Assembly: GCF_001866005.1 (NCBI RefSeq)
Contig: NZ_MLQR01000027.1
Coordinates: 124,001 to 188,000 of the forward strand
Reading direction: 5' to 3'
DNA from: Anaerobacillus alkalilacustris
GTDB lineage: Bacteria; Bacillota; Bacilli; Bacillales; Anaerobacillaceae
Length of the DNA stretch: 64,000 nucleotides
Translations under genes and position numbers: made by a program
Shown here: positions 8,125 through 35,392 of the stretch, in pieces
Position numbering within the stretch: position 1 is the stretch's first letter
Layout: every line of letters starts with the position of its first letter
The notes under the pieces: model-generated
Database searches by the model: none
Told to the model about the DNA's origin: nothing
Seen by the model: only the letters and a program-made list of their open reading frames with translations

Positions 8125-8131
8125 AAAAGGA

Positions 8132-8168
8132 AACGCAAAGAACTAGTAATGTTCTTTGCGTTTTTTCT
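8132..8168. terminator. bidirectional terminator downstream of the PTS gene
   Basis: AACGCAAAGAAC (8132-8143) pairs perfectly with GTTCTTTGCGTT (8151-8162), with a T-run on the plus side and a T-rich tail on the minus side. It can end the minus-strand sugar operon. Confidence 0.75.
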
Positions 8169-8279
8169 ATCCTAATAGAGTAAGTGATGGCTATTTATGT
8201 TATCCTTCCAACTACTTTTCTTCTTCAATGAGAACATTGAAACAAATCCATCATTACACACTTAATTGTTTACTTTCTG

Positions 8280-11388: not shown

Positions 11389-11459
11389 GCTATTCCCTCC
11401 ATTAGTTAATAAACTATATTTAAGATCATTTCATAAATAATATCTCCTGTGTTACTTTA

Positions 11460-11473
11460 TGGTATCGTTCCCA
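11460..11473. promoter_or_regulatory. LacI-type operator, site 4
   Basis: TGGTATCGTTCCCA, 72 bp upstream of the GH13 start; same pattern as sites 1-3 at the left edge of the window. Confidence 0.65.
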
Positions 11474-11573
11474 TAATTGTTTAAAAAAAAGTAAAAAGAT
11501 ACGTTCATTTACCAGTAAAGAAAAGAAACGTTTTTTCCTTGAATACCATACAAAACAATCATCAACAATAACG

Positions 11574-11587
11574 TGGTATCGGTTCCA
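11574..11587. promoter_or_regulatory. LacI-type operator, site 5
   Basis: TGGTATCGGTTCCA, 114 bp from site 4 (about 11 helical turns), a spacing that would allow looping by a tetrameric or paired repressor. The regulator gene lies immediately upstream. Confidence 0.65.
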
Positions 11588-11721
11588 CATTACGTGAAAA
11601 ATATGTCGAAATCGTTATAAGTTTATTATATTTTCATTTTTGTTTCCTGTCAACGCTTTCTTTATATTTTTTTATCTACACTATATAGTATAACGAAATG
11701 AAATATCATACTATAACATGA

Positions 11722-11771
11722 AAAAAAACTAAGCTTTTCGTTAAATTATTAGAAACAAAAGCCTAGTTTTC
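11722..11771 (-). terminator. terminator of the lacI-type gene
   Basis: AAAACTAGGCTTTT pairs with AAAAGCTTAGTTTT on the minus strand, followed by a run of T, about 50 nt after the stop at 11820. Confidence 0.7.
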
Positions 11772-11819
11772 AACATAAAAACAATCAGATTTCCTTGTCT
11801 TCACATAATAACTTCATAA

Positions 11820-12812
11820 CTAAGTAGATTGGCGAACAATTAATTCTATCGGCAATTCATAACTTTTTATTTCCGTTTCTGGATTGTCTAGTATATTAAG
11901 CATTACTTGTATTGACTTTTCCCCCATCTGATCGACTGGTTGGCGAATCGTCGTTAATTTAGGATCTAGTATCTCTGCAATTGGTTGGTCATCGAAACCA
12001 ACAACTGCTAAATCTTGAGGTATCGCTAATCCCTGCTCTTTTGCTTCAATGATTATTCCACCAGCTACTTCATCGCTTCCGGTAAAAATAGCCGTTGGAC
12101 GATCATCCATTTCTAGTATTTGTTTCATAACTTGCTTACCATCTGCAATTGTATGCTGATCTACAAAAATCCATTTCGGATTGATCTTAATTCTAGCTTC
12201 ATGTAATGCTTTTTGAAAACCATGATTGCGGTCTTTACCTTTACCCTCCTCATCGAACAATCCACCTGTACAATAAGCAATTTTTTGGTGACCTTTATCA
12301 ATTAAATGTTTACCCCCTAAATAGGCCCCTTTCGATTGATCTAAACGAATCATAGGAGCAACCGTCTGGTTTACGTAATCATTACATAACAAAATAGGCC
12401 CATATTCTTTATATGACTCAATCATCTTCCAATCATTTTCAATTGAAGTCATAATAACTCCATCTACTTGCTTTGTTTTTAACAAGTTTAAAAATGCTAT
12501 TTCTTTTTCCTTATCTTCATAACTTTGGAAAATTAATACTTGGTATCCCTTTTTATAAGCAGCCTGTTCTATAGAATTAACTAAATGCGAAAAAAATGGA
12601 TTTACAATTCTAGGTACAATGACTCCTATAGTTGTCGTTAACTGGCCTCTTAGCCTTCTAGCAGAAGGGTTCGGTGTATATCCAAGCTCTTTCATTGCCT
12701 TCAATACTTGTTTTTTCTTCTCTTCGGAAACATACGGATGATTATTTATCACACGTGAAACAGTCGTTTTCGATAACCCCGATAATCTTGCAACATCTAA
12801 TATAGTAGCCAC
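11820..12812 (-). CDS. LacI/GalR-family transcriptional repressor
   Basis: 330 residues: an N-terminal helix-turn-helix (ATILDVARLSGLSKTTVSRV, residues 2-21), the hinge NPSARRLR, and a periplasmic-binding-like effector domain (TIGVIVPRI through VVGFDDQPIAE). It is read in the same direction as the GH13-PTS pair, but a terminator and two operators lie between them. By family and position it should repress that pair, and probably the sugar-binding lipoprotein gene at the left edge, releasing DNA when the sugar or sugar phosphate binds. B. subtilis trehalose genes use a GntR-type TreR instead, so this is either a different sugar system or a swapped regulator. Confidence 0.9.
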   Translation of the reverse strand: MATILDVARLSGLSKTTVSRVINNHPYVSEEKKKQVLKAMKELGYTPNPSARRLRGQLTTTIGVIVPRIVNPFFSHLVNSIEQAAYKKGYQVLIFQSYEDKEKEIAFLNLLKTKQVDGVIMTSIENDWKMIESYKEYGPILLCNDYVNQTVAPMIRLDQSKGAYLGGKHLIDKGHQKIAYCTGGLFDEEGKGKDRNHGFQKALHEARIKINPKWIFVDQHTIADGKQVMKQILEMDDRPTAIFTGSDEVAGGIIIEAKEQGLAIPQDLAVVGFDDQPIAEILDPKLTTIRQPVDQMGEKSIQVMLNILDNPETEIKSYELPIELIVRQST

Positions 12813-13095
12813 TTGTCAATCACTCCAATGTTAATATAAACATGAAATCAGTTTCATATTTATTTTACTTTAGTAAGGAGACATATTGCAATGGCGGATA
12901 GTTTATTATGTTTAATAACTTTAACTTTGTACCGCCTATACCAAAAAGTTCACAAATCAATTCATTGATTTCCAATTTACAACAAATCAACATAATAAGT
13001 TGTAATTTTATAAAAATTCACTTATATTGAATACGTCAGACTTGTAATAATTAAAAGCAGATAAAGAATTAGTTTAAATAAGGAGAGGATATTCC

Positions 13096-13515
13096 TTGAA
13101 CTTCATAGAGAAAGACACCCAAACGGTTGCACTGGTAGAAGATGAACCGTCACATGCACTATTAATTAGCTATAACCTTGAATTAAGGGGAATAAAAGTT
13201 TCACTATTTGAAAGTGGAGAACAATTTCTGAATAGTAAACAAGATCCCTTTGATTTAATCATCACTAATGTAAACCATTTTGATGTGGGTGGACTTCAGT
13301 TATATTCGGAAATTAGGAATAAAGGAATAGAAACTCCAATTTTATTTGTTACGACAAACCCTTCAATAAACAATTATTTATGTTCAGATAAAGCACTTGA
13401 ACTTTTAATAAAACCATTCTCAATTAAAGAACTAGTTGTTAAGGTAGAGCACCTATTAAATAAAGACTTAAAAAAAACTGAGAGTGAAAGATTATTTAAC
13501 GAGCAAAAAGCATAG
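13096..13515 (+). CDS. stand-alone receiver-domain protein lacking the phospho-acceptor Asp
   Basis: 139 residues forming one CheY-like fold: acidic pair E15-D16 (LVEDEPSH), Thr in LFVTTNP near 87 and the conserved Lys106 in LIKPF. The position that should be the phosphorylated Asp (DLIIxD) reads DLIITN, so it is Asn58. There is no output domain, only a short charged tail. The TTG start is supported by AAGGAGAGG eight bases upstream. No histidine kinase is adjacent. It may act as a phosphorylation-independent pseudo-receiver that binds a partner, or be the leftover of a longer response regulator. Confidence 0.75.
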   Translation: MNFIEKDTQTVALVEDEPSHALLISYNLELRGIKVSLFESGEQFLNSKQDPFDLIITNVNHFDVGGLQLYSEIRNKGIETPILFVTTNPSINNYLCSDKALELLIKPFSIKELVVKVEHLLNKDLKKTESERLFNEQKA

Positions 13516-14389
13516 GGACAATGACAGAGAAATTCCTTGTCCCGTTACAAAAAGTAATAAAATGAAATTGTGAAGTGCTTATCCACAGTACTTTCGAAGT
13601 TTTTTGCTACAGGAAAGTGGTTTATCATTTTATTAACAGTTACTGATGTTGAAATAACGTTTTTAAATGTAATATTATGAACCATAAAAGCAATCCCCGA
13701 AAACAACATGGACCGAAAATTGGATGTTACTTTTTCTGATTTGAAGAAGGCTCATAAATTAAATGAAAGAGGAAATAAATAACGAAAAAGTTCATAGAAC
13801 ATATTGATATAGTTGAAAAAGAATTATATCGAAATAAGAAAAACAGATGGTATTTTATTACCAAATTCTGCGGACAAATTTGTGGCGTAAGATAGTTGTT
13901 TTTGAAAAATCACACTTCGATTGTCATGATACTAAGATAAACGCTAATACCTGATAATGTGGATAAAACAGCTAAGAACATTATTTTTTCTTAGTTATCC
14001 TCTCAAATTCTTTCTTCAAAACACATATACCAATATCCTAAGCCTCCTTCCTTACAAAAGACTTGCCTCACTTCATTTACCGTATTTATTCCAAATTGAT
14101 ATGCCGATACCTCCTCAATTTCAATCCGTATCAAAATAACGATATACCATTAGAACATTCGATTTTTGAATTTATTCTTTAGTGTCACCGAATTTTAAGG
14201 TATAGCTTTGTCACAATAATTTATGAAATCAAGGAATATTCTTGATGGGTGTTGCCTAATATTCCTTCTCATTTGTTATGATGGGGATTGTATTGCAACT
14301 CAAAAAATTTTATTGTCAACAAGATTTTTTAAGTTGAAATAATTCTTCTTAACCTAAAGACTTAAATGTATGATTCTTACAGTCTTTTA
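13516..14389. other. intergenic region, about 870 bp, without a convincing gene
   Basis: A GGGACAA/TTGTCCC hairpin (13515-13543) follows the receiver gene but lacks a T-run. Short plus-strand frames around 13710-13895 give lysine-rich peptides with no ribosome site and look like decayed coding DNA; no family recognised. Near 14295-14335 an AT-rich inverted repeat (CAACTcAAAAAAT / ATTTTTTaAGTTG) lies upstream of katG. Confidence 0.4.
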
Positions 14390-16712
<2,323 letters not shown>

Positions 16713-21853: not shown

Positions 21854-22708
21854 TTAATGATCACTAGTTTGACATGTACATTGGGAATGGAAACGACTAA
21901 GAAAATCTTTTGTGCGTTGCTCTTTTGGCTTTTTGAACAGTTGTTTCGGTGGTCCTTGTTCAACAATGCGTCCGTCTGCCATGAACACTACACGGTCTGC
22001 AATATCACGGGCAAAATCCATTTCATGTGTAATTAGTAACATTGCCATTTCCCCTTCATTGGCAATATCACGAATGACTTGTAACACTTCTCCAACTAAT
22101 TCTGGGTCTAATGCTGAAGTTACTTCGTCAAATAACATAATTTTTGGTTTCATAACGAGTGCCCTTGCAATAGCAACCCGTTGCTGCTGCCCACCTGACA
22201 ATTGTAGCGGATAAGCATCTAATTTTGAATCTAAACCAACTTTTGTTAGCATTTCAATCGCATTTGCTTTCGCTTCTTCTTTAGGAATTTTTAACACATG
22301 TACTTGAGCTTCCATAACATTACGTAAAATCGTCATGTGTGGAAACAAATTATATTGTTGAAAAACCATACCAATTTTCCCGCGAACCTTTTGGAAGTGC
22401 TTTTCATCTGCTGGAACTAGCTTTCCTTTTACTTCTTTATGCCATAATTGTTCACCTTCTACCTCGATTGTACCTGCTGAGGGATTTTCAAGTGTCATCA
22501 ACATTCTTGCTAGGGTCGTTTTACCAGATCCACTAGGACCAATAATCGCAACCTTCTCCCCAGGATAGATATTAAAATCAATATTTTTTAAGATTTCAAC
22601 ATCACCAAACGATTTACAAATATCCCGATATTTAACAATCGGTGTTCCTAATAACGGCTCTTCTACACCTGTTTCTTCAAAATGACGAATGGATAATAGT
22701 TGACTCAT
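21854..22708 (-). CDS. ehuA: ectoine/hydroxyectoine ABC transporter, ATP-binding protein
   Basis: Cytoplasmic ATPase of a polar-amino-acid-type importer. Walker A is GPSGSGKTT, the signature is LSGGQQQRVAIARAL and Walker B is IMLFDEVTSALDPE, followed by the switch His in LLITHEMDFA. The start at 22708 (MSQLLSIRH) has AAAGGGG in front; the longer frame from 22789 would run into the preceding gene. About 284 residues. It is the last gene of the operon. The ectoine assignment rests on its binding protein and the catabolic genes rather than on the ATPase itself. Confidence 0.88.
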   Translation of the reverse strand: MSQLLSIRHFEETGVEEPLLGTPIVKYRDICKSFGDVEILKNIDFNIYPGEKVAIIGPSGSGKTTLARMLMTLENPSAGTIEVEGEQLWHKEVKGKLVPADEKHFQKVRGKIGMVFQQYNLFPHMTILRNVMEAQVHVLKIPKEEAKANAIEMLTKVGLDSKLDAYPLQLSGGQQQRVAIARALVMKPKIMLFDEVTSALDPELVGEVLQVIRDIANEGEMAMLLITHEMDFARDIADRVVFMADGRIVEQGPPKQLFKKPKEQRTKDFLSRFHSQCTCQTSDH

Positions 22709-22745
22709 ATATATATCGACCCCTTTACTTATTTTTTGAAAAAAC

Positions 22746-23417
22746 TTATGAAATGACTCGCCCAAATCGTTGATTCGTTTTTTTCTCAAGATACCGAATA
22801 GCTAAAGAAGCAGGGTAACTTAGTAATAAAAACAAAATACCGACAATTGTAAATGCTTCTAAATATCGAAATGAACTAGAACCTATCATTTTAGCCATTT
22901 GCATCATTTCAACTAACGTAATTGCTGATAATAAAGGTGTTTCTTTAAACATGACAATAAAGTAATTTCCTAGCATCGGAATGATTGGGGGAACAGCTTG
23001 AGGTAAAATAATTCTAGTAAACATTTTAACCTTTGAAAAATTTAAAGCTGCACTTGCTTCCCATTGACCTTTAGGAATGGCATCTAATCCCGAGCGATAA
23101 ACCTCGGCTAAGTACGTACTATAATGCAAACCTAACCCTAAAACACCGGCACTAAAAGGTGATAACGCAATACCAACACTAGGTAATACGTAAAAGATAA
23201 AAAATAACTGAACTAACAATGGTGTACTGCGAACAAATTCGACGATACAAGTAACAACGATTACGAGCGGTTTAAATGATGATCTTTTAGCGATCGCCCA
23301 AACTAAACCTAGAATTGCCGCGATAAAAAACCCGACTATCGTTGCTGCAATTGTAATTCCCATTGCCTTAAGTAATTGCGGCATAATTGATACAGCAAAT
23401 TCCCAATCCCACATCAT
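22746..23417 (-). CDS. ehuD: ectoine/hydroxyectoine ABC transporter, permease
   Basis: 223 residues with about five membrane helices and the HisM-type permease family features: VEFVRSTPLLVQLFFIFY early, and the ATPase-contact EAA-like loop EASAALNFSKVKMFTRIILPQA in the middle. It starts on the base after the ehuC stop, with GGGAGGG inside ehuC, so the two permeases are translationally coupled. It pairs with ehuC to form the membrane channel. Confidence 0.87.
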   Translation of the reverse strand: MMWDWEFAVSIMPQLLKAMGITIAATIVGFFIAAILGLVWAIAKRSSFKPLVIVVTCIVEFVRSTPLLVQLFFIFYVLPSVGIALSPFSAGVLGLGLHYSTYLAEVYRSGLDAIPKGQWEASAALNFSKVKMFTRIILPQAVPPIIPMLGNYFIVMFKETPLLSAITLVEMMQMAKMIGSSSFRYLEAFTIVGILFLLLSYPASLAIRYLEKKTNQRFGRVIS

Positions 23418-24065
23418 CTAGACCCTCCCTACTGATATTTTTTTCTCAAACCAACGAACTCCTAAAGTAATTGGATAAGCAATGATAAAGTAGAACACGA
23501 GTAACATCGTGAAAATCTCAATTGTTTGCATCGTTGCAGTTCGTAAGGCCATCGCTTGGAACGTTAAATCTGATAAAGTAACGAGTGATACTAAAGCTGT
23601 TCCTTTTAATAATTCAATTAATAAATTTCCAAAGGTTGGAACCATTAAGAGCAAAGCTTGAGGTAAAATTACATATCTCATTCGTTGAAAAGGGGTCATA
23701 TTAAGAGCAATTGTTGCTTCCGTTTGTCCTTTTGAAACAGATAAAATTGAGCTTCTTACAACTTCTGCACCATAAGCACCGTAATTAAGTCCAAGCGCTA
23801 AAACCCCTGCTGTCATCGCAGCTAAACTAATTCCCAATACCGGTAATGCAAAATATAGCCAAAATAATTGTATGAGTAATGAAGTTCCTCTGAAAAACTC
23901 GATATATACACTTGCAAAAAATCGTACAATTTTAGATTTCGATAATTTCATAAAGCCGAACAAAAACGATAGAATAAACGCTAGAATAGTAGAATAAAAC
24001 ATCACTTGTAACGTTACACTAGCACCACTTAAAAGTGGTTTAATAAAATCTGTCATAGAGTACAT
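23418..24065 (-). CDS. ehuC: ectoine/hydroxyectoine ABC transporter, permease
   Basis: About 215 residues, five membrane helices, same family as its neighbour: IEFFRGTSLLIQLFWLYFAL and the contact loop EATIALNMTPFQRMRYVILP. The start at 24065 (MYSMTDFIKP) is preferred because GAGGGAT lies seven bases upstream; a GTG at 24080 overlaps that site. A 127-bp gap with a hairpin separates it from the binding-protein gene upstream, which may keep permease expression below that of the binding protein. Confidence 0.87.
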   Translation of the reverse strand: MYSMTDFIKPLLSGASVTLQVMFYSTILAFILSFLFGFMKLSKSKIVRFFASVYIEFFRGTSLLIQLFWLYFALPVLGISLAAMTAGVLALGLNYGAYGAEVVRSSILSVSKGQTEATIALNMTPFQRMRYVILPQALLLMVPTFGNLLIELLKGTALVSLVTLSDLTFQAMALRTATMQTIEIFTMLLVFYFIIAYPITLGVRWFEKKISVGRV

Positions 24066-24146
24066 AGTTTGATCCCTCACTTTCTTTCATTTCAAAGGTA
24101 ACAGTGTTAAACCTTTATACTTTATTCTACTTTTCTATATAGGTCA

Positions 24147-24162
24147 GGTGATGCCTGTCACC
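24147..24162 (-). other. hairpin between ehuB and ehuC
   Basis: GGTGA-TGCCTG-TCACC without a U-tract. Such intergenic hairpins often stabilise the upstream transcript or lower downstream expression, which would suit the excess of binding protein over permease. Confidence 0.4.
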
Positions 24163-24192
24163 ACCCGACGATTAATAGATTTTATCGAAAAT

Positions 24193-25062
24193 TTATTTTG
24201 TTAAAGAATCTACAGTAGCATCACCTGGAAGTTCTTGCTCGGTAAAGCCGAATTGTTCTAAAATTTCTAGTAGTTCTCCTGATTCTTTAAGTTTCTCAAG
24301 CTCTGCATTAAAGACGTCAACAAAATCTGTTTCACCTTTACGGAATGCTGTTGCACCGTATCCACGAACATTTACTCCATCGATGACAGGTTGAACAAAA
24401 TCCATCACTCGTTCAACTCGATCATTATTCGCTGCATCCAAAACAGCTTGTAATGATGGCCCTGTCATAGCTATGACATCAACTCGACCAGCGATAAGTG
24501 CGTCTAGGGCACTTGGATTATCAGGAACGATATGAATTTGACTTTCTTTCACACCTACACTAGTTAAATAATTAAATTGAATGGCACCACCCATAACAGC
24601 AACTTTAACGTCACTATTATTTACGATATCCTCGTAGCTTTTTATATTTATTGGGTTTCCTGCTACAACAGCAATTCCTTCACCAATGCTATACTCAGGG
24701 TTAGCAAAGTCAACTTCCTTGGCACGATCAGCAGTAATGTACATACCAGCGGTAATCATGTCAAAACGGTTAGCCTTTAAACCTGGAATAAGAGAACCAA
24801 ACTCTGTGAGGACTCCGTTCATTTCTTCAATCCCTAATCTTTGTAAGATTACTCGGGCAATTTCCACTGCTTCACCCGTTAACTTTCCATCTGGTGTCGC
24901 ATACGCGTACGGTGCTTCATTTGCAAAACCTACCGTGACAAAGCCTTCTCTTTTTACTTTTTCAAAGGTTGTTTCTTGTGTCGCTGCTTCTTCTGAAGAT
25001 CCACATCCTAGTAAACTTACAAGTGAGATTGCTACTACTATCGACAGTAACCATTTCTTCAT
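24193..25062 (-). CDS. ehuB: ectoine/hydroxyectoine-binding lipoprotein
   Basis: 289 residues with a lipoprotein signal (lipobox SLLGC, Cys20) and a family 3 solute-binding domain. The segments GFANEAPYAYATPDGKLTGE, LTEFGSLIPGLKANRFDMI and AGMYITADRAKEVDF correspond closely to what I recall of EhuB from Sinorhizobium, the ectoine/hydroxyectoine receptor. This is the main transport-side reason for calling the cluster an ectoine system. It has a strong AAAGGGG ribosome site and lies 24 bp after the aldehyde dehydrogenase gene. Confidence 0.88.
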   Translation of the reverse strand: MKKWLLSIVVAISLVSLLGCGSSEEAATQETTFEKVKREGFVTVGFANEAPYAYATPDGKLTGEAVEIARVILQRLGIEEMNGVLTEFGSLIPGLKANRFDMITAGMYITADRAKEVDFANPEYSIGEGIAVVAGNPINIKSYEDIVNNSDVKVAVMGGAIQFNYLTSVGVKESQIHIVPDNPSALDALIAGRVDVIAMTGPSLQAVLDAANNDRVERVMDFVQPVIDGVNVRGYGATAFRKGETDFVDVFNAELEKLKESGELLEILEQFGFTEQELPGDATVDSLTK

Positions 25063-25086: not shown

Positions 25087-26532
25087 TTATGAATATTTCG
25101 AAAGTTTAAAGCAGACAACCTTTGGTTCCGTCATTTCATGGACAGAAAATTGCACTCCTTCTCGACCAAGTCCTGACTGCTTTACCCCTCCAAAAGGCAT
25201 CGCATCAATGCGGTAATCACTACTATCATTAATCATAATGCCGCCAACATCCATCGACTTGATGGCACGAAATGCTTGATTTATATCATTCGTAAAAATT
25301 CCTGCTTGCAGACCATATTGAACGGCGTTTGATTTTTCAATCGCTTCATCTAATTCTTTGACACAGTCTAAAAGAACAACTGGTCCAAAAATTTCTTCGC
25401 GTGTGATTTCACTTTCTGCTGGAACATTTGTCAAAACAGTTGGCATATAATAAGCACTAAACCTCTCTCCACCACATAAGCACGTTGCACCAAGTTTTCG
25501 TGCATCATTTACTAGCCTTTCAACTCGTATCGCTTCTTTTTCAGTAATGAGAGGCCCCATATCCGTTTCTTCCAAAAGTTTATCTCCGACTCGGTATTGT
25601 TTCGTACGAGCAACAAGCTGATTTGTAAATGTTTCATATATCCCTTCTTGTATATAGACACGCTGAACACCTAAACAGTTTTGGCCAGCTGCCCAAAACG
25701 AACCAGACGTAATCGCTTCAACCGCATCTTCCAAATTTGCATCTTCAAGAACGATACAAGGTGAATTAGAGCCGAGTTCCATACCCAGTTTCTTTAATCC
25801 TGCTTTTTTGGCGATCGCCTCACCTGCGTTTACTCCACCTGTAAAAGAAATCATCCGAACAGCCGGGTGGGTGACAAGTTCGTCACCGATTTCTGAAGCA
25901 TTACCAGTAATTACCGACAGTACTTTCTTTGGAAGTCCCGCTTCCATAAACGCTTCGGCTAACAGAAAAGCACTTAACGGTGTCACTGTCGCTGGTTTAA
26001 CGATCACCGCATTCCCACCAGCAATTGCTGGCCCTATTTTATGAGCAACTAGATTTAGGGGGTCGTTGAATGGCGTGATTGCAACAATTAAGCCAATTGG
26101 AAATCGGTAATAATAGCCAACTCGATCTTCACTGCCTGGCATTTGATCAAATGAAATTGTTTCTCCGTGAAGTCGTCTTGCTTCTTCTGCACTTAAACGA
26201 ATCGTTTGAATGCAACGCGATACTTCTTTTCTTGCTTCACGAATCGTTTTGCTTCCTTCTTTAGCAATCGTATCAGCAAAAAGGTCATGCCTTTTTTCAA
26301 TCCAATTAGCAGCTTTTGTTAAAATTGAGATTCTTTCATGTGTCGATAAACTGGCAGCTATTTTTGTACCTTCTATCCCAATTTCAATCGCCCTTTTCAC
26401 ATCTTCTACACTTGCAGCCGGTACTTTCGCAATCACCTCAGCGTTTTTTGGATCGATTACGTCAATCGTTCTCTCACTTGTCACCCATTCCCCGCCAAGA
26501 AGCATACTTTGCATGACCATTGTACTTGTCAT
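25087..26532 (-). CDS. doeC: NAD(P)-dependent aldehyde dehydrogenase, probable aspartate-semialdehyde dehydrogenase of ectoine catabolism (DoeC-like)
   Basis: 481-residue aldehyde dehydrogenase with catalytic Cys286 in AAGQNCLGVQ, general-base Glu252 in LGMELGSNSP, and the cofactor motif ISFTGGVNAGE. In known ectoine degradation the last step oxidises L-aspartate 4-semialdehyde to L-aspartate by an enzyme of this family (DoeC). Its place between the transporter and the other catabolic genes fits that role. The family also includes succinate- and other semialdehyde dehydrogenases, so the exact substrate is inferred from context. Confidence 0.8.
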   Translation of the reverse strand: MTSTMVMQSMLLGGEWVTSERTIDVIDPKNAEVIAKVPAASVEDVKRAIEIGIEGTKIAASLSTHERISILTKAANWIEKRHDLFADTIAKEGSKTIREARKEVSRCIQTIRLSAEEARRLHGETISFDQMPGSEDRVGYYYRFPIGLIVAITPFNDPLNLVAHKIGPAIAGGNAVIVKPATVTPLSAFLLAEAFMEAGLPKKVLSVITGNASEIGDELVTHPAVRMISFTGGVNAGEAIAKKAGLKKLGMELGSNSPCIVLEDANLEDAVEAITSGSFWAAGQNCLGVQRVYIQEGIYETFTNQLVARTKQYRVGDKLLEETDMGPLITEKEAIRVERLVNDARKLGATCLCGGERFSAYYMPTVLTNVPAESEITREEIFGPVVLLDCVKELDEAIEKSNAVQYGLQAGIFTNDINQAFRAIKSMDVGGIMINDSSDYRIDAMPFGGVKQSGLGREGVQFSVHEMTEPKVVCFKLSKYS

Positions 26533-26555: not shown

Positions 26556-27602
26556 TTAAACTTTTTGATAGACTTGTTCAACGTTAAGTAAATCGATTAA
26601 TATCGAAAAAGCTGTTTCTACTTTTCCAGCACCAGCGCCTTGAAGAGTAACTGGTCCTATCAAATCACACTCATAAGTAATTGCGTTCGTTGCACCACTT
26701 ACGCCTGCAAGGGAATCTTTTAAAGAAATCATTTCAGGACCTACCGAAGCATAGCATTTTCCACCTTCTTGCTTAACTTGAGCAATTAACTTCCAGCGCT
26801 TCCCTTCTACATTTGCAAGTTCTATGTCAGCTTCCGTGAGATGAGATATTCCTCTTCTTTTAACTTCTTCTGTTTTTAATGGGTAACCCATAATCACATT
26901 CGCCAAAATGACAATTTTGTATAATGCATCAAAACCTTCGACGTCACTTGTCGGATCGGCTTCAGCATATCCTAACTGTTGTGCTTCTTTTAATGATTCA
27001 TCATAAGAAAGACCTTCTTCCATGCGAGTGAGCATATAATTGGTCGTTCCATTTAAAATCCCTTTGATTGCTGATATTTCATTTCCAGCTAAAGATGTCA
27101 TCGGCATTCGTAACGCTGGTGTTCCACTCATCACTGAACCTTCAAAACCCCAGAAAACACCTTGTTTTTTCGCTAATATTTGTAATTCTTCGTAGGCTAG
27201 AGCTACTGGTCCTTTGTTACTCATTATGACATTTTTTTGATTTTCAAAAGCAAATTTACAATGATCAATCGCCGGCTGCCCCGTCAAAACATCTGTAAAA
27301 GTCACTTCGATAATCGTATCGGCATTTGTCTTTTCAATCGTTTCAAAGCTATTCAAACCCCGGATTAATCCAGGTTGTTCGGGATAAGCATGTAACGAGC
27401 CTGTTTCATTGATAACTTTGACTACGTCCTCAATTGACAGTCCATCTGGATGATAAAGAGCTCCTTTGAATAAATCACTAATCGCAACAATCGAAATGTC
27501 TTTGCCATACTTTTCTTGTAATAGGTCTTTTTTTTGTAAAATAACTTCTGCAAATCCTTGGCCAACAACACCAAATCCAAGTATTGCTACACGATGTGTC
27601 AA
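26556..27602 (-). CDS. homoserine dehydrogenase-like oxidoreductase
   Basis: About 348 residues. An N-terminal Rossmann fold (VAILGFGVVGQGF) is followed by the homoserine dehydrogenase catalytic segment (GILNGTTNYMLTRM and EADPTSDVEGFDALYKI). It lacks the C-terminal ACT domain of the biosynthetic enzyme, so it should not be threonine-inhibited. The reaction interconverts aspartate semialdehyde and homoserine, so it touches the same intermediate as the aldehyde dehydrogenase. The TTG start at 27602 is supported by AAAGGTAGGGG; the longer frame overlaps the preceding gene. I know of no homoserine dehydrogenase in the classical proteobacterial ectoine clusters. Confidence 0.85.
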   Translation of the reverse strand: MTHRVAILGFGVVGQGFAEVILQKKDLLQEKYGKDISIVAISDLFKGALYHPDGLSIEDVVKVINETGSLHAYPEQPGLIRGLNSFETIEKTNADTIIEVTFTDVLTGQPAIDHCKFAFENQKNVIMSNKGPVALAYEELQILAKKQGVFWGFEGSVMSGTPALRMPMTSLAGNEISAIKGILNGTTNYMLTRMEEGLSYDESLKEAQQLGYAEADPTSDVEGFDALYKIVILANVIMGYPLKTEEVKRRGISHLTEADIELANVEGKRWKLIAQVKQEGGKCYASVGPEMISLKDSLAGVSGATNAITYECDLIGPVTLQGAGAGKVETAFSILIDLLNVEQVYQKV

Positions 27603-27624
27603 CGTACAATCCCCTACCTTTCTA

Positions 27625-28860
27625 CTATTCACTCATTATGAAATGCTCTTTATTCGGTAAATCATAGACTCCTTCAAGAAATTTCAATACGGTATACGCT
27701 ACAATCGAAGCCCCAATCGGTAAGCATCGTTCATCAATATCAAAAATTGGTGTATGTAACTCTTTTTTCTTGCCATCTTGAGTTGAACACCCTAAGAAAA
27801 ACATCGCACCCGGAACTTCATTTGTCATATGTGAGAAGTCCTCTCCACCTAAACCAAATGGAATCTCATATTTTTTTATCTCTGGAAATAATTGTTTTAC
27901 CGTTTCTCGAAATGCTTGATTTACTTCTGGATTGTTATACAAAGCTGGTTCTCCTTTGTTGACAGTGAAATCATAGTTTCCACCAAACGTTTCAACCACT
28001 GAAATTGCCCTTTCTAATTTTGTTATTAACTCTTCTCTAACATGGGGAGAATAACTTCTTAATGTCCCTTGTAAAAATACGTCACTAGGTATTATGTTAC
28101 TTGCAGATCCGCCTTTTAATTCACCAATACTGATAACAGCAGCGTCAAGCGGTGAAATATTTCTTGCTACAATTCCATGGATGGCTTGTAAGACCGGTCC
28201 TAACATCCAGATAGGGTCTGTTCCAAGATGAGGATAGGCCCCGTGCCCACCCGTCCCTTGAATCGTTACCTGAAAAACATCGACATTTGCCATACTATAA
28301 CCGTCATGAATAAGAACTTCTCCAACCGCATGCTCTGGACTTACATGTAATGCGAGGATACAATCTACATCTGATAACACACCCGCTTCAACTAAGTACT
28401 GAGCACCTGTTTTTCCTGTTTCATTTGTCGCTTCTTCCGCTGGTTGAAAAATAAATTTCACCGTTCCTGGAAGTTGGTTTTGAACAGATGCTTCACTTAA
28501 AATTGTCGCTACAGCTAAAGCGATCGCAGTATGCGCATCATGACCACACGCATGCATGACTCCTTCTCTTTCAGATTGATAGTTATGAGTCGCTTCTTCA
28601 ACAATCGGTAAGGCATCGATATCCGCTCTTACGGCAATCGTCGGGCCACTACCACCAGAAATTGTCGCAATGACTGCAGTTTCCCAGCCTACACCTGTTT
28701 CAATATGAACGTTCGGAAGACATGCAAACTTCTTTTTTATAAATAGTGCTGTATCATATTCCTGAAAGCTTAGTTCAGGATTCTTATGAAGATGACGGCG
28801 CCACTGTATCATCTCTTCTTTTAACTGATGAGCACGTGCTAGGATCCAGTTCTCACTCAC
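27625..28860 (-). CDS. M20 family amidohydrolase, probable N-acetyl-diaminobutyrate deacetylase
   Basis: 411-residue metallo-amidohydrolase of the M20D type. Metal ligands are Cys105 and His107 in MHACGHDAHT, Glu in FQPAEEA, His in ALHVSPE, and a C-terminal GGEDFS. Family members remove acyl groups from amino acids. In ectoine breakdown the hydrolase product N-alpha-acetyl-L-2,4-diaminobutyrate must be deacetylated, a step done in Halomonas and Ruegeria by DoeB, from the unrelated AstE/aspartoacylase family. No DoeB-like gene is in the window, so this enzyme is the best candidate for that step by non-orthologous replacement. The role is inferred. Confidence 0.85.
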   Translation of the reverse strand: MSENWILARAHQLKEEMIQWRRHLHKNPELSFQEYDTALFIKKKFACLPNVHIETGVGWETAVIATISGGSGPTIAVRADIDALPIVEEATHNYQSEREGVMHACGHDAHTAIALAVATILSEASVQNQLPGTVKFIFQPAEEATNETGKTGAQYLVEAGVLSDVDCILALHVSPEHAVGEVLIHDGYSMANVDVFQVTIQGTGGHGAYPHLGTDPIWMLGPVLQAIHGIVARNISPLDAAVISIGELKGGSASNIIPSDVFLQGTLRSYSPHVREELITKLERAISVVETFGGNYDFTVNKGEPALYNNPEVNQAFRETVKQLFPEIKKYEIPFGLGGEDFSHMTNEVPGAMFFLGCSTQDGKKKELHTPIFDIDERCLPIGASIVAYTVLKFLEGVYDLPNKEHFIMSE

Positions 28861-28876
28861 GATAAATCACCTTCTT

Positions 28877-30085
28877 TTATAAACTCAGTGAAACTTGCTT
28901 CTTTTTTAATGCTTCAAAAGCTTGCTCTAAATCTTGAATTAAATCTTCAGTATCTTCAATTCCAACAGAGATTCGAACAAGACCTTCAGGAATTCCCATT
29001 GCTGCTCTTTCTTCAGGGGTACACTCAACATGACTTGTTGTTCTTGCTGGACCATACGTTGTTTCAACTGCTCCTAGGTTAGCGGCACGATTAGCATATT
29101 GTAATTTTGGTAGCAAAACTTTTACTGCATCCATGCCACCTTTTAACGAGAAGCTAAGCATTCCACCGAAACCTTTCATTTGCTCTTTAGCAATCTCATG
29201 GTTTGTATGTGTTTCTAAGCCAGGATAAAACACCGACTCAACACTTTCTTGAGTTTGTAAATATTTCGCAATTTCCATTGCGCTTTTTGCTTGTTGCAAG
29301 ACTCGTAATTTTAATGTTTTCATTCCACGCAATAATAGATATGCTGCCCACGGATCAAGTGTAGCTCCATTAATTTCGCGATAGTGATAAATTGAGTGAA
29401 TTAGATCCTTAGGTCCACAAATGACACCACCTAGCGCATCCGCATGTCCACCTAAAAACTTAGTCGCACTATGAAGGACTAAATCAGCCCCTAGCTCCAA
29501 AGGATTTTGATTAATCGGTGTTGCAAACGTATTGTCAACTACGACAATTGCTCCTACCGCTTTCCCTGCTTGTGCCACTCGACGGATATCTGTAATTTTT
29601 ACTGTCGGGTTTGTTGGCGTTTCTAAATACAAGATTTTACAACCTTTTGCAACTTCTTTTTCAATTGCATCATGGTCCCCTGTGTTACAAAGCGCAACTT
29701 CCACATTGATATTCGGTAAAAATTCGGTGAAAATTTTATTCGTTCCACCATACGTATCTTTAATAGAAACAATTCGATCTCCAGGCTTTAAAAATGTATA
29801 TAACGTATTACTAATTGCAGCCATACCTGTTGAAAAACTCGTAGCTGCTTCGGCCCCTTCTAAAATTCGAACTTTTTCTTCAAAAGCTTGCACTGTCGGA
29901 TTCGTATTTCTTCCATATATATGACCTTGTTTTTTCCCGACAGCTACATCGTACCAATCATCCATATCATCGTAGTTATAAGCAACACTAACTACTACTG
30001 GTACTTGCGTCGCACCGTGTACAAGAACCTCTTTTTCTCCTGCCCAGACTGTTTTTGTTCCTACTTGCGCTTCTGTGTTTTTCAT
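28877..30085 (-). CDS. cystathionine gamma-synthase/lyase-family PLP enzyme
   Basis: 402 residues, fold type I of the Cys/Met metabolism family. PLP Lys209 is in SATKFLGGHADALGG, Asp184 in VVDNT, and the phosphate-binding YGR (57-59) replaces the usual YSR. The C-terminal motif TYGPARTTSH differs from the common SHPASMTH pattern. Family enzymes carry out gamma-replacement or gamma-elimination on homoserine esters, cystathionine or methionine. Here it sits between the ornithine cyclodeaminase-like and deacetylase genes, where a diaminobutyrate-transforming enzyme is expected and DoeD-type transaminase is missing. It could eliminate the gamma-amino group of diaminobutyrate or process a homoserine derivative; neither is proven. 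Confidence 0.85.
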   Translation of the reverse strand: MKNTEAQVGTKTVWAGEKEVLVHGATQVPVVVSVAYNYDDMDDWYDVAVGKKQGHIYGRNTNPTVQAFEEKVRILEGAEAATSFSTGMAAISNTLYTFLKPGDRIVSIKDTYGGTNKIFTEFLPNINVEVALCNTGDHDAIEKEVAKGCKILYLETPTNPTVKITDIRRVAQAGKAVGAIVVVDNTFATPINQNPLELGADLVLHSATKFLGGHADALGGVICGPKDLIHSIYHYREINGATLDPWAAYLLLRGMKTLKLRVLQQAKSAMEIAKYLQTQESVESVFYPGLETHTNHEIAKEQMKGFGGMLSFSLKGGMDAVKVLLPKLQYANRAANLGAVETTYGPARTTSHVECTPEERAAMGIPEGLVRISVGIEDTEDLIQDLEQAFEALKKKQVSLSL

Positions 30086-30106: not shown

Positions 30107-31075
30107 TTATTTTTTACTTTTTATTAATTGGTCGTAAGCAAATCTAGCAATCACTGTATCTTGGACGCCAGTTCCCGTTAAATCACAAACGGTAATTTGC
30201 TTTTCGTGTTCTCTACCTATTGTTTTTAAAGAAGTTAGCTCTCCTAACTCTATGATTGATGAATCTTCATTTAATAGAATGCCTTGTTCTTGAGCATAGT
30301 GTAATTCTCCTAGTCGAAAACATTGTGACTTTACATCACAAGCAACGACGTCAGCTTTTTTAAAAATTAACGGATCTAACTCTTGCTTATGTTCGGCATC
30401 TGATCCCATCGCTGTAATATGAAGCCCCGGATGTAACCACTCTGCTTTAATTAGTGGTTCAGTAGAAGGTGTCGTTGTTACAACAAGCTCACTTTCTTTT
30501 ACGACATGTTCCGGGGTTGAAGCGATTTTGACATGTACACCAAGAGATTTTTCCATATCTTTTGCGTACAATTTAGCAGCTTCCTCAGAACGTCCATACA
30601 CGGTTATCGTTTGAAATGGACGAACACAATAAAGTGCCTCCATTTGATACCTCGCTTGCGTACCTGTACCAATCACTCCTACGTAATCAATTTTTGGTTT
30701 TGCTAAGTGCTTTGCACTAATCGCGCCAGCAGCCGCTGTTCTAACATCCGTTAAATAACCGTTATCTAGTAATATTGCTTCTGTAAGACCGGTTTTTGTT
30801 TGAAATAAAATCATCATTCCACTTAAGCTTGGTAAGCCTAACGATTTGTTGTTAAAAAAGCCGGATGATATTTTAATTGCAAACGTATCTAACCCTTTAA
30901 TATGAGCGGTCTTTACATCGACTTCTCCTTGATGCTCTGGTATATCGATTCTCATGATTGGCGGAAGTGTTACATTTCCTTTTGCTAGTTCCGAGAAGCC
31001 TGCCTCAACCATTTCTATGGCAGTCAAATTCACTTGTACTTGTTTGCGAATCTCTTTTTCTTGAAAAACAAACAT
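30107..31075 (-). CDS. eutC: EutC, ornithine cyclodeaminase/mu-crystallin family
   Basis: 322 residues with the family Rossmann motif GVIGTGTQARYQMEAL (about 130-145) and KISSGFFNNKSLGLPS, where ornithine cyclodeaminases have the substrate-binding Lys. EutC accompanies ectoine hydrolase and EutB in many ectoine/hydroxyectoine clusters and is thought to act on the hydroxylated branch. Only 3 bp separate it from the doeA stop, and its ribosome site GAAGGGG lies in the end of doeA. An alternative in isolation would be an alanine or ornithine dehydrogenase-like enzyme, but context supports EutC. Confidence 0.82.
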   Translation of the reverse strand: MFVFQEKEIRKQVQVNLTAIEMVEAGFSELAKGNVTLPPIMRIDIPEHQGEVDVKTAHIKGLDTFAIKISSGFFNNKSLGLPSLSGMMILFQTKTGLTEAILLDNGYLTDVRTAAAGAISAKHLAKPKIDYVGVIGTGTQARYQMEALYCVRPFQTITVYGRSEEAAKLYAKDMEKSLGVHVKIASTPEHVVKESELVVTTTPSTEPLIKAEWLHPGLHITAMGSDAEHKQELDPLIFKKADVVACDVKSQCFRLGELHYAQEQGILLNEDSSIIELGELTSLKTIGREHEKQITVCDLTGTGVQDTVIARFAYDQLIKSKK

Positions 31076-31078
31076 GAT

Positions 31079-32272
31079 TTAAGCCCCTTCTAACAAATTT
31101 GTTTCTTTAATAATTAATTGTCTTGGAAAATCCGCAAACACTTCACAGCCTGTTTCTGTTACTCGTAACGATTCACTAACCTCAACTCCGTAATGATCAA
31201 GCCAAATTCCCGGAATTAAGTGAAACGTCATATTTGGTTGTAAAATCGTTTTGTCCCCTTGACGGAAACTTGCTGTATGTTCGCCCCAATCTGGTGGGTA
31301 ATTAAGCCCCATCGCGTATCCAATACGTGATTCTTTCACGAATCCACTTTTAGCAATCGTTTTTCTCCATACACTTTCTACTTCCTCACACGTTACCCCA
31401 GGTTTGACCGCATCCAAGGTAGCATTTAACCCTTCGACAACAACATCCGCTAAATATTTAACCTTAGGATCTGGTTCACCGATAAACACCGTGCGTGCTA
31501 ACGGTGAATGGTAACGTTTATAACAACCAGCTAGTTCTAAAATGACAGGATCACCAGCTTTATACTGTTCATCCGTCCATGTTAAATGTGGAGTCGATGT
31601 TCTTTCACCAGAAGGTAACAGAGGAACAATCGCAGGATAATCTCCGCCAAACCATTCTGTTCCACTAATTTGAGCGTGATAGATATTTGCGACTACATCA
31701 CACTCACGAACTCCCTCCTGAATAGAGTTAACACCTTCCCACATCGCTTTTTCTACGATTCTTGCAGCATTTCTCATATATTCAATTTCCTGATTAGACT
31801 TTATAATCCGGACATAGTTAACAAGGTTTGTAGCATCTTTAAACTTTGCACCAGGAAGGCCTTTTTGCAGCTGTGTAAAACATTTCGCCGTAAAATAGTA
31901 CGTATCCATTTCTACCCCAATCGTTAAATGCGTTTGTCCCATTTCCTTTAAAATGTTACATACAAAGTCCATTGGGTGCTTCACTGTTGATTGAACATAG
32001 TCATCTGTATAAGGAATGATATGATTCTCATCTAACCATGTTGTTACTTTTGCACCATTGGCATCTTGACCTCGCCCAATCCAAAATGGTTGTTCTTCAT
32101 CAATGAAAACCATTACTAATTGATGTACGTAAAAGGACCACCCATCGTACCCTGACAAATAATTCATATTTGCAGGATCTGTTAAAAGAAGAACATCAAT
32201 CCCTTCCTTTTCCATTCTTTGTTTCGTTTTTGTAATGCGTTGTTGAAATTCTGTAATCTCAAATGACAACAT
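31079..32272 (-). CDS. doeA: ectoine hydrolase (M24-like)
   Basis: 397-residue member of the M24/creatinase fold that opens the ectoine ring to N-acetyl-diaminobutyrate; also called EutD. Compared from memory with the Halomonas elongata enzyme, several blocks coincide: GYDGWSFYVHQ, the GR-x2-DANGA segment, GGDYPAIVPLLPSG followed by PHLTW, RYHSPLARTVFIG, and LNYPPDWGE. These blocks are characteristic of ectoine hydrolases rather than of Xaa-Pro peptidases, whose five metal ligands are not all present. It is the first gene of the ten-gene operon and has a strong GGGAGG ribosome site. Confidence 0.92.
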   Translation of the reverse strand: MLSFEITEFQQRITKTKQRMEKEGIDVLLLTDPANMNYLSGYDGWSFYVHQLVMVFIDEEQPFWIGRGQDANGAKVTTWLDENHIIPYTDDYVQSTVKHPMDFVCNILKEMGQTHLTIGVEMDTYYFTAKCFTQLQKGLPGAKFKDATNLVNYVRIIKSNQEIEYMRNAARIVEKAMWEGVNSIQEGVRECDVVANIYHAQISGTEWFGGDYPAIVPLLPSGERTSTPHLTWTDEQYKAGDPVILELAGCYKRYHSPLARTVFIGEPDPKVKYLADVVVEGLNATLDAVKPGVTCEEVESVWRKTIAKSGFVKESRIGYAMGLNYPPDWGEHTASFRQGDKTILQPNMTFHLIPGIWLDHYGVEVSESLRVTETGCEVFADFPRQLIIKETNLLEGA

Positions 32273-32643
32273 GTTTACTTGACCTCCCTTTTTACGTAAC
32301 GTTAGTTAACATTTCGTTGGACTCATTGTAATCTCTTGAGGATTAAAAAAACTATTACACAAAGTGTAAGAAATTTATTTGCTTTTTTCTGACAAATTTA
32401 ACAATAGTCCACACAGAAGCCTGGCAAACATACTGATTTTACTGACTTTTTTACATAGTTGTTAAAGAATATCTAGGATATGAACACTCATTTCGTGTAA
32501 GGATATCTACCAAAGAAATTAGTATCAATTTCAAAAATGGTATTATACACAAAAATAAACATTTTTAGTTCGTTGATGTTGCGAGGTAATCTAACATACA
32601 AAAGCAATATTTATATTCAGAATGTAACGGAGGAGTTTTTATA
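32273..32643. promoter_or_regulatory. divergent control region of the ectoine cluster
   Basis: 371 bp between doeA (leftward) and eutB (rightward). It contains a perfect 15-bp palindrome TTACACAAAGTGTAA at 32355-32369, 83 bp upstream of the doeA start, the most likely operator in the region. A repeated AGGATAT (around 32475 and 32500) flanks an ACAC...GTGT pair. Several weak sigma-A-like hexamers occur, but none has clear spacing, suggesting an activator-dependent promoter. Confidence 0.5.
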
Positions 32644-33636
32644 ATGAAAACAAAAAAGAAAATAAACCAATCTTTAACCACCCAAGATATTTGGAAAGCA
32701 AGGAAAGCGATTCAACCTTATATAAAAAAAACACCTTTAGTATACTCACCTGTACTTTCTAAACAGTACAATGCAAATATATATCTGAAATACGAACACC
32801 TTCACGAAAGTGGCGCCTTTAAGATGCGCGGGGCCATGAACGCCATTGCTAGTTTAACAGATGAAGAAAAACGTTATGGGGTTGCCACTTTTTCTACTGG
32901 TAATCATGGATTTGCAGTAGCACTTGCAGCAAAAAAATTAGGCATAAACGCTACGGTATGTGTATCAAAACGAGTGCCTGAAGTAAAAATCGAAGCAATT
33001 AAAAACTTAGGCGTAAACTTAGAAATATATGGCGAAGGACAAGATGATGCCGAAAAACGTTGTTATGAACTAGAGGAACAACAAGGCTTGACCGTTATTC
33101 CACCATTTGATGATTTTAACGTAATTGCTGGTCAAGGTACGATTGCTCTTGAAATTTTAGAAGACTTACCACAAGTGGATTGTGTTGTTGGTGGATTATC
33201 TGGTGGTGGACTTCTTTCTGGGATTAGCCTTGTTATGAAAGCTACGAATCCTGCAATTAACGTTGTTGGACTATCAATGGAAAATGGGGCTGCTATGTAC
33301 GAAAGCTTAAAAGCCAGCCACCCTGTTTTAGTTTCAGAGTCTCCTACTTTAGCAGATAGTTTACTAGGTGGGATTGGACTAGAAAATCAATATACATTTG
33401 ATATCATCCGGAAAAATATCGATCAGGCCATCTTAATACCAGAAGAAACGATTGCAAAAGGAATGGCGTATCTATATAAACAACATCGAATTGTCATAGA
33501 GGGCGCAGGTGCAATTGCGGCTGGGGCTTTGCTAGATGAGATGATCCCGACTAAATTTTCTACTCTTGTAATAATAATTAGCGGTTGTAACGTTGATTAC
33601 CATTCACATGCAAATGCTATTCAACCATATTTATAG
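32644..33636 (+). CDS. eutB: hydroxyectoine utilisation dehydratase EutB
   Basis: 330-residue fold type II PLP enzyme of the serine/threonine dehydratase family. PLP Lys60 is in SGAFKMRGAMNA and the phosphate-binding loop is GGLSGGGLLSG near 185-195. Biosynthetic threonine deaminase would add C-terminal ACT domains, absent here. EutB is a standard partner of EutC in clusters that handle 5-hydroxyectoine. The gene is divergent from the main operon and has GGAGGAG in front of its ATG. EutA, the third protein often found with them, is not in the window. Confidence 0.85.
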   Translation: MKTKKKINQSLTTQDIWKARKAIQPYIKKTPLVYSPVLSKQYNANIYLKYEHLHESGAFKMRGAMNAIASLTDEEKRYGVATFSTGNHGFAVALAAKKLGINATVCVSKRVPEVKIEAIKNLGVNLEIYGEGQDDAEKRCYELEEQQGLTVIPPFDDFNVIAGQGTIALEILEDLPQVDCVVGGLSGGGLLSGISLVMKATNPAINVVGLSMENGAAMYESLKASHPVLVSESPTLADSLLGGIGLENQYTFDIIRKNIDQAILIPEETIAKGMAYLYKQHRIVIEGAGAIAAGALLDEMIPTKFSTLVIIISGCNVDYHSHANAIQPYL

Positions 33637-33719
33637 CTATTGGACTCACGAAGTCACAATTGAATAGTAGTTACTTTCTTTACGAAATGACAAAGACTAC
33701 TATCTTGGAGGTAGGAAAC

Positions 33720-35330
33720 ATGCATTTTACTGTTAACCATTTATTAGAAAACCCAATTATGGAGCAAGCTTCTGTTTTAGCTGGGGATTCAGCTATATCA
33801 ACTTGTCAAATAGATTCTGTATCTGTCATTGAAATACCCGTAGAAGATTTTGTTAGGAAAAATGAGTTTGTTTTATCAACCGCCATTGGCTGCAATGCCA
33901 ATCCTTCTCTATTTTTATCATTTGTCCGAGATGTCCATGAATCAGGAGCGTCTGGATTAGCAATCGCCGTTGGTAGGCATGTTGAATCTATACCTAAAGA
34001 AGTTATAAACTATTCAATTGACCATAACTTCCCTTTAATCGAGCTTCCCTGGGAAATTCGATTTTCAGATATTACGAGAACAATTTTTGAAAAAGTTCAC
34101 GAATGGCAACAAAATTCCTTCCAAAAAACAGATCAAATTCAACGAGAACTTCTCCAGTTATTTTTGGACGGTGAAACACTAGATCGTGCATTACAAGTTT
34201 TATCAACTGCTTTTGGCACTAGAGTGTATATTTCACGGCCAGAAATGGAACCTATTTTTACTCCTTCCTTTGAAGAGACTAGTAACAATCCATTTCCCTA
34301 CCCAAATGAGCCTTCGATTATTTTAACTCAAGACGGAGCACGGCTTCAAATTACGCCAATTCAAATGTTTAACAGACAAATCGGAATACTTGTTTTAGAG
34401 TCAACCTTACCTTCAACACCACCTATCGCTTGGAATATTGTTGAGCAAACGATTACGACACTACATTTATGGTTTCAAAAAGAGCAATCCGTTATTGATA
34501 AAAAAAATAAAGAAAAAGAAAAATTTATTGAGATGTTAACCAATGGAGAATGGACATCGTGGGAAGATATAGAAAGACAAGGAAATTCTCTTGGGCTCGA
34601 CATTACCACTTCGTATGTATGTATCGTAGGAACTATTGAAAGTATTGAAGAAACTACGATGACAGAAATCACAAAAAATTCATTACGTGAACGGTTTGTT
34701 AAGAAAACTTTAGAACTGTCAGAAGTTTGCGCAGACTCCATTTTGAAAAAGATTATTTGTTCATTTCAACGTGACCATATTATTTTATTTTTAGAAGCTA
34801 CTAAAGATGAAGCACGTGCAACCACCTACCATTTTTTAGATATGATTGAACAACAATTAGAAGTACAAGGTGGAACTCCACACCTTATTTCTTGGGGCAT
34901 TGGTGAAAACCACGCCGGTTATCGATCTTTTCACCAAAGTTACAAAGATGCGCGAATCGCTTTAGAAATTGGTAGAAGTTATAATGGTCCCGGTTATCGT
35001 AGTACATACGCAAACACTGGTATATTTAGGCTTTTATCGACTTTAGCACAAGACACTTCTACAAACGAAATGGTTCAAACAACCATTGGCCAACTAGTTA
35101 ATTATAGTCGCAATCGTAATCTTGATTTACTGCAAACACTCACTACCTACTTACAATGTCAAGGAAATGTTAGTCAAACATCACGTGCACTAGCTCTACA
35201 CAGACAATCATTATTATATCGCCTTCGCAAAATCGAAACATTAACCGGAAGGTCACTTACAGACCCTGACGACCTTTTTTTACTACAACTATGCAGCAAG
35301 TTATGGAGCCTTCGCTTTAAAGGGGTCTGA
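33720..35330 (+). CDS. PucR-family transcriptional regulator
   Basis: About 536 residues: an N-terminal PucR sensory domain (VNHLLENPIMEQASVLAG onward, to about 130), a middle GGDEF-like/CdaR segment, and a C-terminal helix-turn-helix with the family's motif NVSQTSRALALHRQSLLYRL. Members of this family are substrate-sensing activators, such as PucR for purine catabolism. ATG 33720 has a near-ideal GGAGG; a TTG 20 codons earlier does not. It lies 83 bp after eutB, probably co-transcribed, and should control the ectoine operon. Proteobacterial ectoine clusters instead use EnuR, a MocR-type PLP-binding repressor. Confidence 0.87.
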   Translation: MHFTVNHLLENPIMEQASVLAGDSAISTCQIDSVSVIEIPVEDFVRKNEFVLSTAIGCNANPSLFLSFVRDVHESGASGLAIAVGRHVESIPKEVINYSIDHNFPLIELPWEIRFSDITRTIFEKVHEWQQNSFQKTDQIQRELLQLFLDGETLDRALQVLSTAFGTRVYISRPEMEPIFTPSFEETSNNPFPYPNEPSIILTQDGARLQITPIQMFNRQIGILVLESTLPSTPPIAWNIVEQTITTLHLWFQKEQSVIDKKNKEKEKFIEMLTNGEWTSWEDIERQGNSLGLDITTSYVCIVGTIESIEETTMTEITKNSLRERFVKKTLELSEVCADSILKKIICSFQRDHIILFLEATKDEARATTYHFLDMIEQQLEVQGGTPHLISWGIGENHAGYRSFHQSYKDARIALEIGRSYNGPGYRSTYANTGIFRLLSTLAQDTSTNEMVQTTIGQLVNYSRNRNLDLLQTLTTYLQCQGNVSQTSRALALHRQSLLYRLRKIETLTGRSLTDPDDLFLLQLCSKLWSLRFKGV

Positions 35331-35352: not shown

Positions 35353-35392
35353 AAAAGGGTCTGACATCCACATTTGGATGTCAGACCCTTAA
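35353..35392. terminator. bidirectional terminator between pucR-type gene and gatB
   Basis: AAGGGTCTGACATCC (35355-35369) pairs perfectly with 35376-35390. T-rich tails on both sides let it serve the convergent genes. A short GGGGTC-TGA-CCCC palindrome precedes it at 35323-35335; both contain GGGTCTGAC, a motif repeated in many Bacillus intergenic regions. Confidence 0.8.

Follow-up and report, generated by a model that had tools for sequence, protein, structure and literature searches.

A conserved bipartite DNA element before ectoine breakdown operons of Bacillota as a candidate operator for a linked PucR-family regulator

Upstream of doeA in the ectoine catabolic cluster of Anaerobacillus alkalilacustris lies a bipartite DNA element that is conserved among ectoine loci in sequence and position, co-occurs with a linked gene for a PucR-family regulator and is specific genome-wide. 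Our best reading is that the operator before doeA is this longer two-part site and not the small palindrome, which it overlaps, first noticed in the region. We infer binding, activation and ligand from sequence comparison, and place at roughly 75% the probability that the linked PucR binds the bipartite operator (about -82 to -34) and activates doeA from a promoter without a -35 box. The window referred to throughout is the whole stretch of 64,000 nucleotides that was analysed.

The cluster in the window is organised around a 371-bp divergent region between doeA and eutB (32273-32643). The minus strand carries the doeA/eutD-like ectoine hydrolase gene as the first of its operon (31079..32272), followed by a eutC-like cyclodeaminase (30107..31075; PRK08291, 469 bits, over cut-off), a cystathionine gamma-synthase family PLP enzyme (28877..30085; PRK08249, 766 bits, over cut-off), a doeB-like M20 amidohydrolase (27625..28860; over cut-off for TIGR01891, with 255 bits against the DoeB2 model, whose cut-off of 550 is not reached), a homoserine dehydrogenase-like gene (26556..27632; PRK06270, 449 bits, over cut-off), an aldehyde dehydrogenase (25087..26532; PF00171) and the ehuBCDA ectoine/hydroxyectoine ABC transporter (21854..25062; EhuD assigned by position only). 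The plus strand carries eutB, the hydroxyectoine utilization dehydratase (32644..33636; PRK07476, 428 bits against a cut-off of 413), and then the PucR-family gene (33720..35330). Homologues of EhuA, EhuB, EhuC and EutB over their curated cut-offs mark this as an ectoine/hydroxyectoine catabolic cluster. DoeA itself scores 524 bits over its full length against TIGR02993, its best family by far, and falls below the cut-off of 613 bits, so that homology and context are the grounds for taking ectoine as the substrate. Bacillota clusters, including the window at 26556-30085, have cystathionine-gamma-synthase-family and homoserine-dehydrogenase-like enzymes where Proteobacteria use an aminotransferase, and the Bacillota route from diaminobutyrate may differ from that of Proteobacteria. 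Between pucR and gatB, an inverted repeat with perfect 15-bp arms (35355-35390; AAGGGTCTGACATCC / GGATGTCAGACCCTT), directly preceded by the related piece GGGTCTGACCCC, is probably a two-way terminator.

The initial annotation had placed a PucR-family protein without a PLP domain in the position that EnuR would occupy, and the domain content bears this out. A Pfam scan recovers the N-terminal PucR domain (PF07905, 101.9 bits against a cut-off of 33.5), a GGDEF-like domain (PF17853, 57.2 bits) and a C-terminal HTH_30 domain (PF13556, 73.5 bits), the latter two also over cut-off; it finds no aminotransferase/PLP domain, and the GntR helix-turn-helix and PLP-binding aminotransferase combination by which EnuR/MocR proteins are recognised is absent. 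The reading frame as called spans 33660-35330, and ATG 33720 (536 aa) is the more likely start compared with TTG 33660. A TTGGAGG sequence lies just upstream of the ATG, and relatives align from approximately residue 18-21. A protein scan of genome contigs with the window PucR as query matched no relative, and a search of the genome set took its place.

Of 397 genomes that represent the order in our sample, 118 have DoeA relatives (E<=1e-100). From approximately 140 match rows, 80 DoeA loci were chosen for score and spread, making 82 with the two clusters of the A. alkalilacustris genome (68 of them with pucR in the fetched stretch) and 90 with eight further loci from a class-wide search. Gene calls come from tblastn searches with the proteins of the window as queries, with start codons assigned by rule. 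Our own expectation-maximisation search, applied to the regions ahead of doeA (56) and of cgs as first gene of an operon (19), gave width-16 motifs with log-likelihoods of 348.9 against 68.4 for shuffled sequence and 166.5 against 51.5, respectively, and the core TTCATACA emerged independently from both sets. The conserved element spans 25 bp (AAAnTTCATACAnTTTnnnnAwTr) and is preceded at near-fixed spacing by a second, inverted and degenerate copy, AAnTTGwmTAA, which occupies columns -22 to -12 when 79 loci are aligned; columns -90 to -36 of the same alignment are flat, with a mean of 0.03 bits. Under leave-one-out scoring of 69 offsets, the distal copy ranks first in 72 of the 79 loci and within the top three in 78, at offsets of -24 (54 loci), -25 (21) and -23 (4). 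The one clear spacing exception is L216 (9460-9520), where, by eye, AAATTGTCTAA stands approximately 11 bp nearer, a shift of about one turn of the helix, as though the two halves had stayed in phase.

Downstream of the element, a -10-like hexamer follows 44-46 bp after the element start in 56 of 79 loci, and at the -35 place of these 56 a mean of only 1.9 of six positions match TTGACA. In the alignment of 54 sites the -10 has an invariant T, A and last T. Distal spacing of -25 goes with a -10 at +44 in 19 of 21 loci, and -24 with +45 in 34 of 54; what seems to stay constant is the separation of the distal half and the -10, with the middle shifting, a pattern that relatedness alone may account for. 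We trained a matrix on 69 regions, with L007, L068, L086, L087, L091 and L123 excluded; in a scan of 1.27 Mb of loci its matches of at least 13 bits are nearly all single, before the operon head and in its direction.

Within the window, the whole candidate operator lies at 32341..32404 on the minus strand, as delimited by a held-out profile of both halves (R3, below), with the dyad centre of its two cores at approximately 32380. The promoter-proximal element, AAATTTCTTACACTTTGTGTAATAG, runs toward doeA at 32352..32376 on the minus strand; it scores 13.9 bits with the held-out matrix, the best match of its 18-kb locus and a score that dinucleotide-shuffled versions of the region reach in 4 of 1000 cases. 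The distal half is the inverted copy at 32387..32400 on the plus strand (TTCTGACAAATTTA on that strand, AAATTTGTCAGAA on the doeA strand), again the leave-one-out best of 69 offsets, with conserved columns -22 to -12. The two halves read TTCTTACACTTTG and TTCTGACAAATTT in inverted order, with the pieces TTCTTACA (proximal) and TTCTGACA (distal). The -10 box of the doeA promoter, TACAAT, lies at 32325..32330 on the minus strand, 46 bp downstream of the proximal element's start, and no -35 match was found, the hexamer 17 bp before it being AGTTTT, unlike TTGACA. Transcription would start at approximately 32318, 7 bp after the -10, which would place the proximal element at about -58 to -34 and the distal half at about -82 to -69. 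Toward eutB the distal half scores 6.0 bits, reached by 1 of 200 shuffles, and we read this signal as the probable distal half of one operator; a separate eutB-directed operator was rejected because most other divergent loci score no better than shuffles in that direction, the exceptions, L216 and L217, having their signals at other places. By eye, a look-alike of what we take to be the consensus of the B. subtilis PucR box is present as TAACGTTAGTTAA at 32297-32309, between the doeA ribosome-binding site and the predicted transcription start; the B. subtilis box is non-palindromic.

The palindrome first proposed as operator, TTACAC-AAA-GTGTAA (TTACACAAAGTGTAA, 32355-32369), lies inside the proximal element. 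Its near edge is indeed 83 positions from the doeA start, as the initial annotation stated, but it is not the perfect 15-bp palindrome described there, having 6-bp arms around a non-palindromic AAA and a reverse complement that differs at three positions. Shuffled versions of the 371-bp region hold a mean of 0.88 such repeats (6-bp arms, loop of at most 3), with one or more in 54% of 300 shuffles, so a repeat of this size is expected by chance. A search upstream of orthologous clusters, which the same annotation had suggested as a check, finds TTACACNNNGTGTAA in one of 90 ectoine loci, the window's own: the palindrome is absent from related clusters while the longer element overlapping it is conserved, the outcome that had been named as telling against it. 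The nearest relatives read TTCTTACACTATTAATAATAG (L086, L087) or TTCATACA... at this place. That a dimer recognises the 6-bp arms of TTACACAAAGTGTAA itself could draw on its position 83 bp before doeA and on its exact degenerate form occurring at only one place in the genome, and is very improbable given its lack of conservation and its chance expectation; we rejected it as operator. The earlier proposal was right as to the place, within the divergent region, and wrong as to the conserved feature.

Possession of the bipartite element follows that of a linked regulator gene. With pucR in the fetched stretch, 76 of 76 loci have their best match of the whole locus before the operon head (doeA, cgs or doeB), scoring at least 13 bits in 72 and at least 9 bits in all; most of these loci contributed to the matrix, and the 14 held-out loci that did not (six excluded from training, eight from the class-wide search) are all among the 76. 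Three of the 14 loci without pucR in the fetched stretch also carry the element: for L077 pucR lies upstream (L224), for L112 it lies in L225, and L074 reaches a contig end, with eutB-pucR at the end of another contig of the same draft genome (L227). Counting these three, where the regulator gene is within the cluster, close to it or elsewhere in the draft genome, 79 of 79 loci have the element ahead of the operon's first gene; the 11 remaining loci, without a linked pucR, all lack it (Fisher 2.4e-14 with kinship ignored; the loci are related and the counts are thus not independent). Five of the 11 pucR-free and site-free doeA operons belong to genomes G050, G146, G220, G386 and G176, whose other cluster has both pucR and the site, which ties the association to linked operons and not to genomes. 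Operons of the eutB-eutC-doeA type lacking both pucR and element were observed at L095, L096, L097 and L105, in genomes with a second, pucR-linked cluster.

Three profiles address genome-wide specificity. With R1, which includes the genome's own sites, the two own ectoine promoters rank first and second; its best non-ectoine match, C50:274694, lies beside lonB/clpX-like genes (named from sequence) and was taken as noise. The held-out profiles are R2 (proximal half and -10, 48 sites) and R3 (both halves, 50 sites), the latter built without the own genome and the window's nearest relatives; profile E-values are rough. Across the whole 4.05-Mb genome R3 ranks the window site (32341-32404) first (E 4.0e-5, 25.7 bits) and the promoter of a second ectoine cluster on contig C3 second (E 3.3e-4). 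The third-best match, C16:5584-5656 (E 0.045), beside IS66-type transposase genes, was likewise set aside as noise. Over 32 sources R3 gives the window E 4.3e-6 and matches none of the 11 pucR-free loci at E<=1, and ehuB transporter operons next to pucR also carry the element (L224, E 2.2e-7; L068, 7.4e-4). R2 ranks C3 first in the own genome (E 0.007) and the window only fifth (E 0.405), and in a search of 199 genomes at E<=0.005 it returns 58 matches, none of them in the own genome. All 29 matches with E<1e-4 precede an ectoine operon head, as compared by eye; the other 29 comprise 14 before doeA, cgs or ehuB, 14 elsewhere (E 2.5e-4 to 0.004) and one (G186) approximately 5 kb before doeA, probably at cgs.

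We infer binding by PucR, and 14 weaker R2 matches in other genomes lie away from ectoine operon heads; both would suit an element bound by some other protein, such as a global nitrogen or carbon regulator, in place of the linked PucR. We consider this quite unlikely, since the 11 loci without pucR lack the element, strong matches are limited to the ectoine operon, the element follows whichever gene heads that operon, doeA or cgs, and a global regulator would show many sites.

The second cluster on C3 (L006, G000:C3:24001-43000, at 6507-14609) is a complete ectoine cluster with the same operator element, containing pucR, doeA, cgs, amidohydrolase, homoserine-dehydrogenase-like and aldehyde dehydrogenase genes without eutB, eutC or ehu. 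In a tree of 67 PucR proteins (two short rows dropped) its regulator belongs to a mainstream lineage of 61 rows, while the window PucR groups with L068, L086 and L087, with L091 beside them, as a small lineage apart; L123 stands alone, and L216 has the regulator nearest to that of the window (48% identity). In both ectoine-linked lineages the recognition part of the HTH, LHRQSLLYRLRKIE, hardly varies, and the two PucR proteins of the genome have the helix LHRQSLL(Y/H)RLR(K/N)IE in common, where two PucR-family structures found by sequence read HPNT; this pattern fits one shared operator code. The common helix, together with the fit of both operators to one profile, raises the question as to whether the window operator is served by the mainstream paralogue, instead of or together with its neighbour. 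Each cluster keeps its own pucR and the two proteins fall in separate lineages, which makes this doubtful. Somewhat more plausible, and still tentative, is that two anciently separated PucR lineages retain in one genome the same operator code and helix while their sensing domains have diverged, for example toward ectoine and hydroxyectoine, forming a cross-wired pair in which each could act on both clusters. As the window PucR belongs to the separate, diverged lineage, its site could also differ functionally.

In the model that we favour, the PucR-family protein encoded after eutB would be the local regulator of the operon from doeA and eutC to ehuBCDA. Its operator (32352-32400) would present two inverted TTC(A/T)TACAnTTT-type copies to two HTH dimers, or to a tetramer, on one DNA face, since the 8-bp cores are centred approximately 23 bp apart, roughly two helical turns. 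The proximal copy stops immediately ahead of where a -35 would lie, at a near-fixed distance to the -10, as expected of an activator touching RNA polymerase. The protein is presumably switched via its PucR or GGDEF-like domain by a compound of the pathway (ectoine, hydroxyectoine or N-alpha-acetyl-diaminobutyrate). Position, the missing -35 and family precedent in the available text of PMC7652997 and PMC11617747 make activation by two cooperating dimers likeliest. A PucR that binds the element and mainly represses, as EnuR does, has precedent in B. subtilis PucR, which can repress, and in EnuR itself (PMC7652997 and PMC5924519, as far as their available text goes), but is unlikely here: the element sits on the upstream side of the -10 and reaches no further than the missing -35, as is typical of activator sites.

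The linkage of PucR to ectoine genes in Bacillota and the contrast with EnuR are already published: the available text of PMC13188858 reports no EnuR homologue in Bacillota and a PucR regulator that clusters with ectoine genes in most species. That text gives no operator, second PucR lineage or promoter architecture, and in the accessible literature on ectoine with PucR or EnuR we found no operator described. Our results turn the published adjacency into a specific, testable switch with an exact candidate operator, a promoter geometry and a two-operon regulon in one genome. Since ectoine operons throughout the order, and in further families of the class, carry this element, a single footprint would account for EnuR-free control of ectoine breakdown in many Gram-positives. 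It also suggests a possible sensor part for ectoine-responsive expression.

Among the closest known systems are the pucR-eut clusters of Bacillota in PMC13188858, which have in the available text the same content (pucR, eutB, eutC, eutD, atf, abgB, thrA and adh), with PucR and not EnuR linked; that text describes them as transcribed in one direction, whereas eutB-pucR is divergent in the window. In its PucR/HTH architecture and its place as a local regulator beside a catabolic operon, the window protein resembles B. subtilis AdeR, PutR and PucR and C. glutamicum GabR, the last of which lacks the GGDEF-like domain present here. The known members compared in the accessible part of PMC7652997 are activators, except B. 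subtilis PucR, which is both; for C. glutamicum GabR the bound region, from -87 to -23, holds two inverted repeats. PMC11617747, from the text at hand, describes PucR-family dimers and tetramers. The window operator resembles those of the family's activators in placing inverted repeats upstream of the promoter (PMC7652997, same part) and differs in serving ectoine breakdown and in being formed as one operator from two single inverted copies, a TTCATACAnTTT pair that the same part of PMC7652997 does not give. EnuR of Proteobacteria, of the MocR/GabR type and, in the available text of PMC5924519, a repressor with a PLP-binding aminotransferase domain, differs from the window regulator in that domain and resembles it in being encoded by a linked gene and, under our model, in controlling orthologous ectoine catabolic genes.
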